NCBI GenBank assembly: GCA_026710655.1
Contig: JAPOQN010000031.1
Location: forward strand, 1 to 64,000
Reading direction: 5' to 3'
From: Chloroflexota bacterium
GTDB lineage: Bacteria; Chloroflexota; Dehalococcoidia; Tepidiformales; Tepidiformaceae
DNA length: 64,000 nucleotides
Of the stretch, positions 25,831-64,000 are shown one piece after another. A program made the position numbers and the translations under genes. The notes under the pieces are model-generated. The model saw nothing but the letters and a program-made list of their open reading frames with translations, had not been told where the DNA came from and searched no databases. Each line of letters opens with the position of its first letter. Position 1 is the stretch's first letter.

Positions 25831-26394
25831 ATGCCCAGACTCGACGACAGCGGCGCCGGTTTTGCCGGCGTCTACAGCCAGCACCGGGAGCTCTGGGAAG
25901 CGTTCCAGGTCCAGTGGGGCACCCTCTGGGAGTACGGTTCCCTTGAGCCCCGCATCCGCGACCTCGTCCGCATCAAGTCCGCCACCCTCCACGCCTGCGA
26001 CTTCTGAGCGCCTGCTCGCACTGCTGCGGCGCAGCAGGACGGCATGGACGAAGGCATGATCGCCGCCATCCACGATCCCGAGCACTCCGATCTCGAGCCC
26101 CGCGTGAAGCTCGCCATGATGTTCGTCGAACGCTGGGTGCGCGATGACGCCCGCTCCATCGACGACGCCTTCTTCTCGGAGTTGCGGGACCACTTCAGCG
26201 AGCGTGAGCTGCTGGAGCTGGCTATCACCACCGGTACCGTCGAGCTCTCGCACAAGTTCAACACCGCCTTCGGCGTCATCCCCCGCCATGAGGACGACAC
26301 CTACGAGGTGGGCACGCCCGGCGCCCCCCAGTACATGCGCGACCACCTCGCTTCCCTCGGCATCGAGTCCCCCCGGGCGAACGCGGACCGCTAG
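25831..26394 (+). CDS. predicted selenoprotein, carboxymuconolactone decarboxylase/AhpD-like, with CxxU redox motif
   Basis: The gene encodes 187 residues if the in-frame TGA at 26005-26007 is read as selenocysteine (residue 59). Before it lies RDLVRIKSATLHACDF and after it APARTAAAQQDGMDEG, then KLAMMFVERWV and HFSERELLELAITTGTVEL. Both halves belong to the same AhpD-like fold, and the TGA sits exactly at the second Cys of the family's CxxC. A 7-bp hairpin (CTGCTGC-GGC-GCAGCAG) is centred 20 nt after the TGA, within the range for bacterial SECIS elements, with G first in the loop. The start is ATG with GGGAGGGG upstream. UGA is a normal stop elsewhere in the window. A CxxU thiol/peroxide-type oxidoreductase is inferred. 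It lies 1 nt before an acyl-CoA ligase gene. Confidence 0.85.
26008..26038 (+). promoter_or_regulatory. predicted bacterial SECIS hairpin of the first selenoprotein
   Basis: The stem CTGCTGC (26021-26027) pairs with GCAGCAG (26031-26037), with loop GGC. The loop starts 20 nt after the TGA. A longer outer pairing CCTGCT/AGCAGG is also possible. Confidence 0.7.
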
Positions 26395-59805: not shown

Positions 59806-60123
59806 ATGACGCAGGTGAAGAAGCGGAAGAAGCCCACGACGGTTGAAGACATCCCGGTCGTGCCGGTGAGCAAGCTGCGGGCGAAGCTGCGGCGCCGGAT
59901 CCGGCGTTACGAGCAGCGCTACGAGATGTCCACGGAACGGATGCGTGAGGTCGTGAGGGAAGACCCGATGCGGGAAACCTGGGAGATCTGCAAGTGGCTG
60001 ATGGACGACAACCTCCTCAAGTACCTCAACGGGGAGGAAAGCATGGATGGGTCGCCATCGACCGATATATCTCAGCCTACGAGCGCGCCCTCGAACGGCA
60101 CTCCTTCGTCCTCGAAGACCTGA
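59806..60123 (+). CDS. probable antitoxin partner of the TumE-like toxin
   Basis: The protein has 105 residues as read. ATG at 59806 has TGGAGG about 5 nt upstream and is better placed than the in-frame ATG at 59773. The core is basic and helical (LRAKLRRRIRRYEQRYEMST, ERMREVVREDP, METWEICKWLMDDNLLKYL-like), resembling small antitoxins before DUF6516 toxins. After about residue 80 it becomes Ser/Thr/Pro-rich and overlaps the toxin coding region in another frame, which suggests that the true end is earlier and that a base is missing or extra near 60045-60052. Confidence 0.6.
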   Translation: MTQVKKRKKPTTVEDIPVVPVSKLRAKLRRRIRRYEQRYEMSTERMREVVREDPMRETWEICKWLMDDNLLKYLNGEESMDGSPSTDISQPTSAPSNGTPSSSKT

Positions 60124-60482
60124 CGGTCTTTCAGCGAGCCACCGGCCGGTTAGGTCCCGTTCTCAGGGTTCAAGGACGGCTCCTCTGCCCTGTGGGCCTC
60201 GTGGTTGAAGTCGCGAAGGAGCTTGCGATCCAGACCGGTCCCCGCAACCAGGAAGAGGTGCGCGGGCTGAGCTATACCTACCACGCCTATGTTCCGGGAA
60301 CGGGCAACCTCCTGCGCTACGACAACTCCCACTCTTTCGACGAGTTCCACCGCCACGAGTACATCTTCCCAACGCGGGACCAGCAGCCGCTTCAGGTGCT
60401 CACCCGCGAGGAGTTCCCCACACTCATCGAGGTCCTCGACGAGGTGCAGGCGATGGCCCAGCGGCTGGGCCTGGCCAGCTAG
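59994..60482 (+). CDS. TumE-like toxin (DUF6516 family), start uncertain
   Basis: The clear protein begins at about 60051 (VAIDRYISAYERALERHSFV, LEDLTVFQRATGRLG). It continues with GLSYTYHAYVPGTGNLLRYD and HRHEYIFPTRDQQPLQVL, which is the DUF6516 pattern Y-x-Y-H...LRYDN...H-x-HE. No ATG, GTG or TTG lies in frame just before it. The only in-frame start is the GTG at 59994 inside the antitoxin gene. An ATG with GAGG at 60043 would start it if one base were added or two removed, so the start is unresolved. It forms a toxin-antitoxin pair with the preceding gene. Confidence 0.65.
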   Translation: MADGRQPPQVPQRGGKHGWVAIDRYISAYERALERHSFVLEDLTVFQRATGRLGPVLRVQGRLLCPVGLVVEVAKELAIQTGPRNQEEVRGLSYTYHAYVPGTGNLLRYDNSHSFDEFHRHEYIFPTRDQQPLQVLTREEFPTLIEVLDEVQAMAQRLGLAS

Positions 60483-61438
60483 CCCGCAGCCACCCGCTCC
60501 CCGATAAACGCGTTGATGCGCTCCCTCGCCTGCTGCCCGATGGGGATGGGCGCGGCGTCGAAACCGTGCGGACCGCCCGGGTAGACGGCTAGCTCCGACT
60601 CGTTCCCAGCCGCCAGCCAGCGCGCGTGCATGAAGAGCGAGTCGTCCAGCAGCGGGTCGTACGAGCCCACCGTGAAGAGCGCGGGCGGCATGTTGTGCAG
60701 GTGCGCGTTCAGCGGCGAGACATCCGGGTCCGTCGTGTCCACGCCGGGGATGAACATCTCGTAAAAGCGGTCGATCGCGGCCCGGTCGAGGCCGCCCTCC
60801 GGCCCCACCCCCAGCCGCTGACTCGGCGTCATCGAGAGGTCGTACGGACCGTAGACGAGGTTCGCCCCCTGGAAGCCCGTGTAGCCGTGACGGTCGCGCA
60901 TCCGCAGCAGCGTGACCGCCGCCAGGTGCGCCCCGGCCGAACCGCCCCCGATGAGCAGCCGCTCAGTGCCGAACTCCGCCGCCGCGTTCTCGACCAGCCA
61001 CACCGCCGCCGCCTCGCAGTCGTCAGGACCGGCGGGGGACGGGTGCTCCGGCGCCAGCCGGTAGTCGACGCTCACCGTGGCGAGGCCGAAGCCCTCGACC
61101 AGTGCGAGGTTGGACTGGTCGCTCATCCGCGCCCGCCCGATCACCCAGCCACCCCCGTGGATATCGAGGTAGACACCCGCCGGCTCGCGCCCCTCGGGCC
61201 GGATGATGCGGACCGTCGCCCCCTCGCCCATGCCCGGCACGGCGCGGTCCTCCGCCCGCTCGACGGGCGGGGGCACGGGAAACGCCCCGCCCCCCTCGTC
61301 CATCAGCCGGCGTAGCTCCACGAGGTCGGTGTTGTCCATCGACGGCATCTGCTCGCGCATGGCCATCGAGGCCGCCACGAAGTCGCGCGTCTCCTGGCTA
61401 ATGGCGTCGGGTCCGAACACGCTGGGGTCGAAGCTCAC
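60479..61438 (-). CDS. alpha/beta hydrolase of the hormone-sensitive-lipase type (esterase)
   Basis: The protein has 319 residues and a GTG start with GAGGAGG upstream. The HSL hallmark VYLDIHGGGWVIGRA (oxyanion hole) and the nucleophile elbow IGGGSAGAHLAAVTLL (Ser) are present, with ALFTVGSYDPLLDDS (Asp) and YPGGPHGFDAAP (His) completing the triad. It hydrolyses carboxyl esters. It lies 10 nt after the second selenoprotein gene and is probably co-transcribed with it. Confidence 0.92.
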   Translation of the reverse strand: MSFDPSVFGPDAISQETRDFVAASMAMREQMPSMDNTDLVELRRLMDEGGGAFPVPPPVERAEDRAVPGMGEGATVRIIRPEGREPAGVYLDIHGGGWVIGRARMSDQSNLALVEGFGLATVSVDYRLAPEHPSPAGPDDCEAAAVWLVENAAAEFGTERLLIGGGSAGAHLAAVTLLRMRDRHGYTGFQGANLVYGPYDLSMTPSQRLGVGPEGGLDRAAIDRFYEMFIPGVDTTDPDVSPLNAHLHNMPPALFTVGSYDPLLDDSLFMHARWLAAGNESELAVYPGGPHGFDAAPIPIGQQARERINAFIGERVAAG

Positions 61439-61448
61439 GCGGTCCTCC

Positions 61449-61958
61449 TCAGGAAGGCTTCAGGCCGAACGAATGGATCAGCCGCCCGTAACCCAGGTAG
61501 CTCACGACCGCCCAGCCGATCTCGAGGATCTGCTCCTCGGTGAAGTGCTGCCCGAGCTCATCGAACAGCTCGCCGTCGATGTTGGCGTGGTCGACGAACA
61601 GCCGCTCCGCATAGTGGAACGCCGCCTTCTCCGCCTCGCTGAAGTCCTGGTCGCCCCACGTCGAAATCTTGCCGACGGTGGTCTCCTCGAGGGTGTCACC
61701 TTCCCCTGACAGGGGAATTCGAGCGGCCTGTCAGAAGTCGCAGGCGTTCAGTTGCGCGACCCGCAGCCGCACCATCTCCTTCAGCCGCGCGGAAACGGCC
61801 CCGTCCCGGATCAGCGGGCGGTACCACTCGTTCCATCGCCCGAACAGCTCGGCGTTGTGCCCGAACACGCGCGTGAAGTCGTCGCCGCGGCCACGCAGCC
61901 CTTCGGGCAGTTCATCGTCGCGGGCAAGGCGGATGTGGGGGGCAGGTGTGTCACTCAT
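61449..61958 (-). CDS. predicted selenoprotein, carboxymuconolactone decarboxylase/AhpD-like, with CxxU redox motif (second copy)
   Basis: The gene encodes 169 residues if the in-frame TGA at 61733-61731 is selenocysteine (residue 76). The preceding MVRLRVAQLNACDF and following QAARIPLSGEG form the family's CxFCQxxR region with U at the second Cys. The second half (DFSEAEKAAFHYAERLFVDH, HFTEEQILEIGWAVVSYLGY) is the normal continuation of the fold and runs in frame to a TGA at 61451-61449. A 6-bp hairpin TTCCCC-TGTCA-GGGGAA starts 13 nt after the TGA, with its loop at 19 nt and G second in the loop. A -10-like TAGAAT lies 7 nt before ATG. It heads an operon with an esterase. Confidence 0.88.
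61701..61717 (-). promoter_or_regulatory. predicted bacterial SECIS hairpin of the second selenoprotein
   Basis: On the minus strand TTCCCC and GGGGAA pair around TGTCA. The loop begins 19 nt after the TGA, the same distance as in the first selenoprotein although the sequences differ. Confidence 0.7.
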
Positions 61959-62093: not shown

Positions 62094-62465
62094 GTGGGGT
62101 CGTTCACCGTCACGGTAGCTGTAGCGAGTCCCGGGACCTCGGAGTTCCAGGACATCGATGCTGTGGTCGACACGGGAGCTGCCCACGCGTTCCTTCCGGC
62201 CTCGTTCCTCGAAGGGCTCGGCATCCCCCGCACGCGAACGCGAGCGTTCAAACTCGCCGACGGCACGCGAAAGACCTACGACATGGGCGAGGCCCGCTTC
62301 CGCATCGAAGGCCGGGAGATGAACTCCCCCGTCGTCTTCGGCGATGAAGGCATCGCTCTCCTCGGCGCCACCACCCTCGAGAATTTCGACCTCATCGCCG
62401 ACACGACCAACCTGCGCCTCATCGACGCCCCCGAAGGCCTGCTGGTCAGCGTCTTCCGCGGCTAA
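62094..62465 (+). CDS. retropepsin-like aspartic protease family protein
   Basis: The protein has 123 residues and a GTG start with AGGAG about 7 nt upstream. The catalytic triplet appears in DIDAVVDTGAAHAFLPASFL (Asp-Thr-Gly-Ala). VVFGDEGIALLGATTLENFDL is the usual hydrophobic Gly motif of the second half. As in bacterial retropepsin-like proteins, one chain would form half of a dimeric active site. There is no signal peptide. The substrate is unknown. Confidence 0.87.
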   Translation: MGSFTVTVAVASPGTSEFQDIDAVVDTGAAHAFLPASFLEGLGIPRTRTRAFKLADGTRKTYDMGEARFRIEGREMNSPVVFGDEGIALLGATTLENFDLIADTTNLRLIDAPEGLLVSVFRG

Positions 62466-62471
62466 GCACCC

Positions 62472-64000
62472 CTACCCCAGGTACGCCGACCCCGACCGGC
62501 GGCCCTTCGGGTCAGTCAGCACGTTCACCAGCGCGACCGTGTTCGCCGCCAGCGCTTCCTGGACCGCGGGCGCGATGTCGGCCGGGTCCTCGACGCGGCG
62601 GGCCCAGCCGCCCACCATCTCGACCGTCTTCTCGTAGGCGACGGGGAGGAGGGCGGCGATGGGGGGTGCGTCCGGGGCGAACGTCCGGTCCTGGATCGAG
62701 TGGCCCGCGATGCCCCCGTTGTTCGACACGACGATGACGACGTTGGCGCCCACGCGCGCGGCCGTCTCCACCTCCATCGCGGCCGCCCCGAAGGCGTAGT
62801 CCCCGAGCACCGCCACCACCTGCTGGTCCGGGCGCGCCAGCTTCGCCCCGAGGGCGTAGGGCAGCCCGGTGCCCATGCAGCCGGTCGTGCCCGAGTTCAG
62901 CCGCAGACGCGACCCGAAGCTCGGCATGACCGCCCTCGCGACGCCCATCGTCAGCTCCGCGTCGACCGTCACGGTCGCGTCGCGATCGAGGCAGTCGCGC
63001 ACGTCCCGCAGCAGCCGGAAGTGGTTGATGGGCACCTCGTCCGAGGCCATCGCCTCCGCCGAGCTTGCCTCGTTCCGGTCCCGCCCCTCCCGCAGCGTCC
63101 CCACCCAGTCGCTGTTCGCGACGCGCAGGCTGCGCCCGTCCAGCAGCCCGTTGAGCTGCTCCACGGCGATCGCGCAGTCGGCCACGATGCCCGTCTCGAC
63201 ATCCGCGCCGCTGTAGAACTCCTCCGCCACGATGTCGATGTGCGCCAGTCGCGCGCCCTCGGCGAAGCGCGGCGCGCGTCCGAACTGGAACACCCAGTTG
63301 AAGCGCCCCCCCACCATAAGCACGGCGTCCGCGCCACTCAGCGCCGCCGAGCGGGCCGCGTTCATGAACATCGGGTGGTCGTCGGGAATCGAGCCCCGCC
63401 CCATGGGCGACGACACGAAGGGGATGCCCCGGTCGACGAGCCGCTGCAGCGGCAGCCCCGCCTCCGCCCAGCCCGCGCCCTTCCCCATGATGACCAGCGG
63501 GCGCTCCGCTTCCGAGAGCATGTCGGCAACCGTTTCGAGGGCGGCCGGGTCGGGATGGGGACGCGAGATCTCGGGCTCGCTCGTCCGCCACTGCACGGCC
63601 TCCTCGTCGAAGGGCGTGCGGATGAGCTCGGCGGGGAAGTCGAGGTAGACGGCTCCCGGACGCCCGTTCAGGGCTCGGCCTAGCGCCAGGTGTACGTACT
63701 CGGCGATGCGCGCCTGGCTGTCGACCTGCGTCGCCCATTTGCAGGCGGGCGCGGCGAACGCCACCTGGTCCGCCTCCTGGAAGGCCCCCAGCCCGCGCTC
63801 GTTCCCCGCCGACGAGCCGCCCAGCACCACCAGCGGCATCGCGCTCTCGGTGGCGACGTACATGGGCGTGACCGCGTTCGTGAGCGCCGGCCCCGAGCCA
63901 ACGACGAGCACCCCCGGCTTCCCCCGCGCCCAGCCCCACGCCGAGGCCGCGAAGCCCGCCGAGACCTCGTGGCGGCAGTTCACCACCGTGATGCCTTCCC
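62472..64000 (-). CDS. thiamine-diphosphate-dependent enzyme (acetolactate synthase/oxalyl-CoA decarboxylase group), 5' end outside the window
   Basis: About 509 residues are visible; the start lies beyond base 64000. The pyrimidine domain shows VNCRHEVSAGFAASAWG and VVGSGPALTNAVTPMYVA, with GGSSAGNERGLGAFQEAD. The ThDP-binding region reads VVAVLGDYAFGAAAMEVETA and then ANVVIVVSNNGGIAG, the Gly-Asp...Asn-Asn metal motif. The order of domains and the phrases around RHE resemble 2-hydroxyacyl-CoA lyases and oxalyl-CoA decarboxylases more than acetolactate synthase, though this was judged by eye. The N-terminal catalytic Glu is not in the window. Confidence 0.85.
   Translation of the reverse strand, partial: EGITVVNCRHEVSAGFAASAWGWARGKPGVLVVGSGPALTNAVTPMYVATESAMPLVVLGGSSAGNERGLGAFQEADQVAFAAPACKWATQVDSQARIAEYVHLALGRALNGRPGAVYLDFPAELIRTPFDEEAVQWRTSEPEISRPHPDPAALETVADMLSEAERPLVIMGKGAGWAEAGLPLQRLVDRGIPFVSSPMGRGSIPDDHPMFMNAARSAALSGADAVLMVGGRFNWVFQFGRAPRFAEGARLAHIDIVAEEFYSGADVETGIVADCAIAVEQLNGLLDGRSLRVANSDWVGTLREGRDRNEASSAEAMASDEVPINHFRLLRDVRDCLDRDATVTVDAELTMGVARAVMPSFGSRLRLNSGTTGCMGTGLPYALGAKLARPDQQVVAVLGDYAFGAAAMEVETAARVGANVVIVVSNNGGIAGHSIQDRTFAPDAPPIAALLPVAYEKTVEMVGGWARRVEDPADIAPAVQEALAANTVALVNVLTDPKGRRSGSAYLG

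Follow-up and report, generated by a model that had tools for sequence, protein, structure and literature searches.

A predicted AhpD-like selenoprotein with a covarying SECIS hairpin, one of several paralogues in a Dehalococcoidia lineage

Does the TGA triplet that interrupts an AhpD-like reading frame in the window, the whole stretch of 64,000 nucleotides analysed, encode selenocysteine (Sec), or is the gene broken at this point? Translated with TGA as Sec (U), the frame gives a 169-residue protein reading MSDTPAPHIRLARDDELPEG...RLRVAQLNACDF-U-QAARIPLSGEGDTLEE...HSFGLKPS, in which the only in-frame TGA is codon 76 (...RVAQLNACDFUQAARIPLSGEGDTL...) and 93 more residues follow before a TGA stop. 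Translation and sequence bear out the arrangement described in the original prediction, namely NACDF-TGA-QAAR, 93 further codons and a hairpin loop 19 nt past the TGA. Judged from sequence, it is very probable that TGA-76 is decoded as Sec and that the gene encodes an all-helical AhpD-like selenoprotein of the CMD superfamily, and the selenoprotein reading first proposed for the locus is supported by the Sec machinery of the genome, by the TGA in every orthologue, by selection and by covariation in the stem of the hairpin. Standard gene callers would end the protein at residue 75 or begin it too far downstream, and the active-site residue would then be missing from the annotation. The features discussed are collected in Table 1.

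Table 1. Features of the predicted selenoprotein locus, its window and the SelD gene
Feature	Position	Strand	Remarks
AhpD/CMD-like gene, predicted selenoprotein	61449..61958	-	169 aa, Sec = residue 76; span includes the TGA stop
In-frame TGA, predicted Sec codon U76	61731..61733	-	TGA in 17/17 orthologues; L041 and L056 have TGC/Cys at the aligned site
Cys73 codon, first residue of the C-x-x-U site	61740..61742	-	Invariant in the alignment
Predicted bacterial SECIS hairpin	61700..61718	-	7-8 bp stem; apical loop GUC 61708-61710; covariation and synonymous-site minimum
Paralogous AhpD-like gene, predicted selenoprotein	25837..26277	+	TGA 26005-26007; hairpin 26021-26037
HSL-type alpha/beta-hydrolase (esterase)	60479..61438	-	PF07859, 6e-49; starts 10 nt downstream of the AhpD-like gene
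Clan AA aspartyl-protease-like gene	62094..62465	+	PF13650, TIGR03698; between the ThDP enzyme and the AhpD-like gene
ThDP-dependent enzyme, oxalyl-CoA decarboxylase / 2-hydroxyacyl-CoA lyase-like	62472..63986	-	Pfam TPP_enzyme M, C and N; 5' end outside the window
SelD gene (L024)	G000:C8:56278-57213	-	In-frame TGA, LTGCGG-U-ASK

Both Pfam score and fold place the predicted protein in the CMD/AhpD superfamily. It matches PF02627 (CMD) with 34.1 bits, against a gathering cut-off of 23 bits, and its AlphaFold model (pLDDT 89) adopts the AhpD fold, with structural matches to the D. radiodurans alkyl hydroperoxide reductase 6k40 (6k40_A, Z 18.9) and further matches to PA0269 (Z 17.8), the debrominase Bmp8 (Z 15.6) and M. 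tuberculosis AhpD (Z 11.3). None of the NCBIfam models scored above its own cut-off; the best match, NF053654 ('YciW-related (seleno)protein'), gave 46.5 bits against a cut-off of 310, and the peroxidase-related enzyme model TIGR01926 gave 27.6 bits against a curated cut-off of 81.8. The redox site reads Cys73-Asp-Phe-Sec76 (C-D-F-U), and in the AhpD-like alignment R64, C73, U76, R80 and E92 are invariant, E61 nearly so. In M. tuberculosis AhpD the catalytic set comprises Glu118, Cys130, Cys133 and His137. Of this canonical Glu/CxxC/His proton relay the predicted protein has the glutamate (Glu61) and, as CxxU, the redox pair, but Arg80 replaces the histidine, and therefore classical alkylhydroperoxidase activity cannot be assumed. 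The arginine is not tied to Sec, since the Cys homologues L041 and L056 carry the same residue.

A search of 148 related genomes and 393 genomes of the class identified 17 orthologues, 60-93% identical and two of them outside the family, each with a single TGA whose position is common to all, and with a frame that stays open past it; close relatives in public records are Dehalococcoidia and Chloroflexi metagenome-assembled genomes (MAGs). Relative to L001, pN/pS in 15 orthologues ranges from 0.06 to 0.41 upstream of the TGA and from 0.11 to 0.38 downstream. Because these ranges match, the sequence past the TGA is as constrained as that before it, indicating purifying selection after the UGA, and the decay there that was named at the outset as grounds for abandoning the prediction is not seen. 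That the TGA is a nonsense mutation in a decaying gene, with the hairpin present by chance, is hardly credible, for although the hairpin of the single sequence is indeed no better than its shuffles and a comparable stem is not rare among recodings of the peptide, this reading is already refuted by the frame conserved past the TGA in all 17 orthologues, quite apart from the equal selection on both sides and the covarying stem. The UGA is aligned with Cys in the distant homologues L041 and L056, the first of which has no hairpin of this kind. No close Cys orthologue was found, the nearest Cys homologue being 36% identical.

The hairpin 3' of the TGA, TTCCCC-TGTCA-GGGGAA, has a 5-nt loop that begins 19 nt past the TGA, or a GUC loop that begins at 20 nt if the U-A pair is closed. 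Taken as a single sequence it has no folding advantage over dinucleotide-shuffled controls (z -0.6 to +0.3), and when the peptide is recoded at random, about 15% of the recodings contain a stem of equal or greater length. These recodings followed the codon usage of the window as derived from nine long ORFs, not all of them confirmed genes. Single-sequence folding was accordingly rejected as proof of a SECIS element; at this level the hairpin does not exceed chance expectation, and it is the comparative data that carry the case for the predicted SECIS. The argument against chance originally drawn from two hairpins is to that extent weaker than stated, while its conclusion, that the element is under selection, is supported by conservation across species.

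A scan of 8-codon windows across 16 aligned sequences (the gene and 15 orthologues) places the lowest synonymous variability of 162 windows at codons +5 to +12 (IPLSGEGD), with a value of 0.18 where the median is 0.62, as low as only 6 of 100,000 random codon sets reach. The fixed codons of the hairpin, CTT/ATT and TCA, each account for just 5-8% of the codons for their own amino acid. The covariance check suggested in the original prediction was run on the orthologues, including those outside the family, together with two paralogue groups. In this set 95.3% of the cells of the 8-bp stem are paired and 25 cells have changes on both sides, distributed over seven of the eight stem pairs; the covariation score is not attained in any of 500 shuffles, and the signal is lost when the partners are slid. 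L036 was excluded from the set owing to a 3-nt shift of its loop; its peptide is changed to PLSSTG and it has a different, rebuilt 8-bp stem, CCCCUGUC-GUC-GACAGGGG. The loop, which lies 19-20 nt from the UGA, reads (U)GUC(A) in orthologues and GGC in paralogues and so has a leading G with G or U behind it. Its geometry agrees with the published bSECIS model, in which a G lies within the first two loop positions at 16-37 nt from the UGA (PMC13188914).

The heptamer UGACAGG (61727-61733, minus strand), made up of the Sec codon and the four bases after it, is also perfectly complementary to the apex of the predicted SECIS, CCUGUCA (61707-61713), and every aligned orthologue retains the core UGACA/UGUCA, which the paralogues do not. 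The alternative pairing is of similar energy yet shows no covariation (score 0.121, reached by 153 of 500 shuffles), and was set aside as a functional fold; the complementarity may be a coincidence or a regulatory alternative fold.

The components that define a genome able to express a bacterial selenoprotein gene are all present. The scan of the source genome (3.14 Mb, 93% complete) found a tRNA-Sec with anticodon TCA (71 bits, above the Rfam cut-off), SelA (517 bits), SelB (300 bits, over its cut-off) and SelD (345 bits), and this sel gene search also disposes of the other objection foreseen in the original prediction, absence of the Sec machinery. The SelD gene has an in-frame TGA of its own, at what we take to be the enzyme's usual Sec/Cys position; SelD is thus itself a predicted selenoprotein and offers an internal positive control for Sec decoding. 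A reading of UGA as some other amino acid, whether by a UGA=Trp code change or by Cys insertion, would likewise preserve an open frame, as any readthrough would. It is nevertheless highly improbable, and was rejected on the terminal TGA, which the gene uses as its own stop, and on the presence of SelA, SelB, SelD and tRNA-Sec; the alignment of the site with Cys in homologues and the TGC found there in a paralogue from SelA-less relatives also count against it.

Decoding as Sec is further placed in context by the distribution of SelA among 36 relatives, where it was detected in 14 of the 15 that have a TGA orthologue against 11 of the 21 that do not (one-sided Fisher ~0.009). The exception, G026, has the TGA orthologue with SelA undetected in a genome that is 81% complete. 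A profile search of the whole AhpD-like group found TGA in 34 of 76 matches from 14 SelA-positive genomes, the source genome included, and in none of 19 from six SelA-negative genomes. The L003-type paralogue, CGYU-KNVRF, reads CGFC-RQVRF with TGC at the site in four SelA-negative genomes of one genus, and these sequences indicate that its Sec/Cys exchange follows the Sec machinery. The comparison of TGA with TGC envisaged for the site gave TGA in all orthologues, TGC in the two distant homologues and no TGA copies in SelA-less relatives. Sister genera that lack SelA and have Cys in one paralogue also provide natural Sec/Cys pairs in which to probe what the AhpD fold gains from Sec.

The gene had been presented as the independent second of two. 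It and the other TGA-containing AhpD-like gene of the window are instead paralogues of one family, not independent inventions, and there are more than two: the source genome contains four further TGA-containing AhpD-like paralogues besides the gene studied, at least five in all, and members of the genus have four or five Sec paralogues per genome. The observation that the hairpins of the two window genes differ while their spacing agrees holds exactly, as the paralogue's stem, CTGCTGC-GGC-GCAGCAG, is unrelated to that of the U76 gene and the two loops occupy the same alignment columns. Elsewhere in the source genome, an AhpD-like TGA gene adjoins a TGA-less AhpD-like gene in two tandem pairs, G000:C1:42993-43966 (L003 and L005) and G000:C5:69394-70211 (L006). 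The TGA-less partner L005 is without a CxxC/U site, and both pairs are found again in several congeneric genomes, an arrangement suggestive of hetero-oligomers. Another group of AhpD-like TGA genes, represented by L064 (G017:C92) and L065 (G025:C2) and occurring in two other genera of the family, has the motif CPFU-MDTNTAGSS and its own hairpin, ACUGCCGGGAGCAGU.

The gene neighbourhood is conserved within the genus. At the orthologous loci the HSL esterase adjoins the AhpD-like gene in nine of nine members (tblastn), and the ThDP-dependent enzyme, whose best NCBIfam match (NF006721) is below cut-off, lies upstream, immediately adjacent in most members; in G006 it is visible only in the longer copy, L045. 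The intervening aspartyl-protease-like gene is common to the source genome and G002, and was not found at the other orthologous loci. On the far side of the esterase, a small protein with a weak match to the toxin TumE (PF20126) is encoded at 59994-60482 on the plus strand, convergent with the esterase and overlapping its frame by 4 nt. Outside the genus, L034 and L048, from a single other genus, retain the ThDP neighbour, and flanks of 1.5 kb revealed no other shared neighbours. It is a speculative suggestion, prompted by the ThDP enzyme and the esterase, that the AhpD-like protein works on a compound formed in the breakdown of an organic acid or ester, and the pathway idea is weak because the neighbourhood is lost beyond the genus and this one other. 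The pathway context originally read into the esterase is thus upheld as adjacency within the genus and does not extend outside it.

In the mechanism we envisage, SelB acting on the downstream hairpin would deliver Sec-tRNA(UCA) at UGA-76, with 93 residues to follow. Sec76, which stands where AhpD has its peroxide-attacking cysteine, would attack a peroxide or other electrophile, Cys73 would resolve the selenenic acid as a selenenyl-sulfide, and this would then be reduced by a cellular thiol system. The protein is likely a peroxidase or disulfide-type reductase of the Cys/Sec kind, in which Sec takes the second place of the CxxC site.

Sec might also be inserted into an enzyme that is no peroxidase, but that dehalogenates its substrate reductively, as the AhpD-like debrominase Bmp8 does, or acts on another electrophile. 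Bmp8 (6ohi, 6ohj) is related in sequence (E 8e-13) as well as in fold, the named relatives include Dehalococcoidia MAGs, and animal deiodinases use Sec for reductive deiodination. We consider this unlikely, as Bmp8 is outscored by several other AhpD-like structures, most of them with peroxidase-related annotations, no halogen-related neighbour occurs among the genes examined, and the Bmp8 site, CMYCKSH, has no Arg at +4. Bmp8 together with AhpD yielded no paper in a literature search of partial coverage. A broader and equally doubtful proposal is that in this genus the AhpD fold has given rise to several Sec-dependent enzymes that share out the tasks among them, two of the paralogues standing beside TGA-less partner genes, in which the U76 member may act on a non-peroxide electrophile, e.g. 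a halogenated metabolite, in a pathway with the ThDP enzyme and the esterase.

AhpD-like selenoproteins with a CxxU site are already known from marine metagenomes. The GOS survey lists AhpD-like 1 (COG2128) with 299 genes and AhpD-like 2 (pfam02627) with 70 (PMC2398784), and a 2026 selenoprotein review includes the AhpD-like protein TIGR01926 CxxU (PMC13188914). These groups, likened to the U76 protein by description, share its AhpD-like domain, its CxxU site and the type of evidence on which they rest. The U76 protein differs from TIGR01926 CxxU in scoring below the cut-off of that model and in belonging to a lineage with five paralogues, and to NF053654, by its description a possible selenoprotein, it is a relative and not a member. 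The AhpD proteins 6k40, P. aeruginosa PA0269 (2o4d) and M. tuberculosis 1gu9 have the same fold, a two-residue redox site and the Glu position, whereas here the second Cys is replaced by Sec and the AhpD His at +4 by Arg80. Bmp8 (6ohi) has the same fold and a CxxC site, but is without Sec and differs in the surrounding residues, the likeness being one of fold and distant sequence. Our literature search found no report of an AhpD-like selenoprotein gene set in this Dehalococcoidia lineage, and, with partial coverage, no paper tying SAR202, to which we guess the source lineage belongs, to selenoproteins. What is new in relation to the known systems is the occurrence of four or five conserved paralogues per genome in one genus, with no matching NCBIfam model. 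The Dehalococcoidia lineage thereby gains a predicted SECIS backed by covariation, together with a conserved group of genes for AhpD-like selenoproteins, of which the genome studied here has five.
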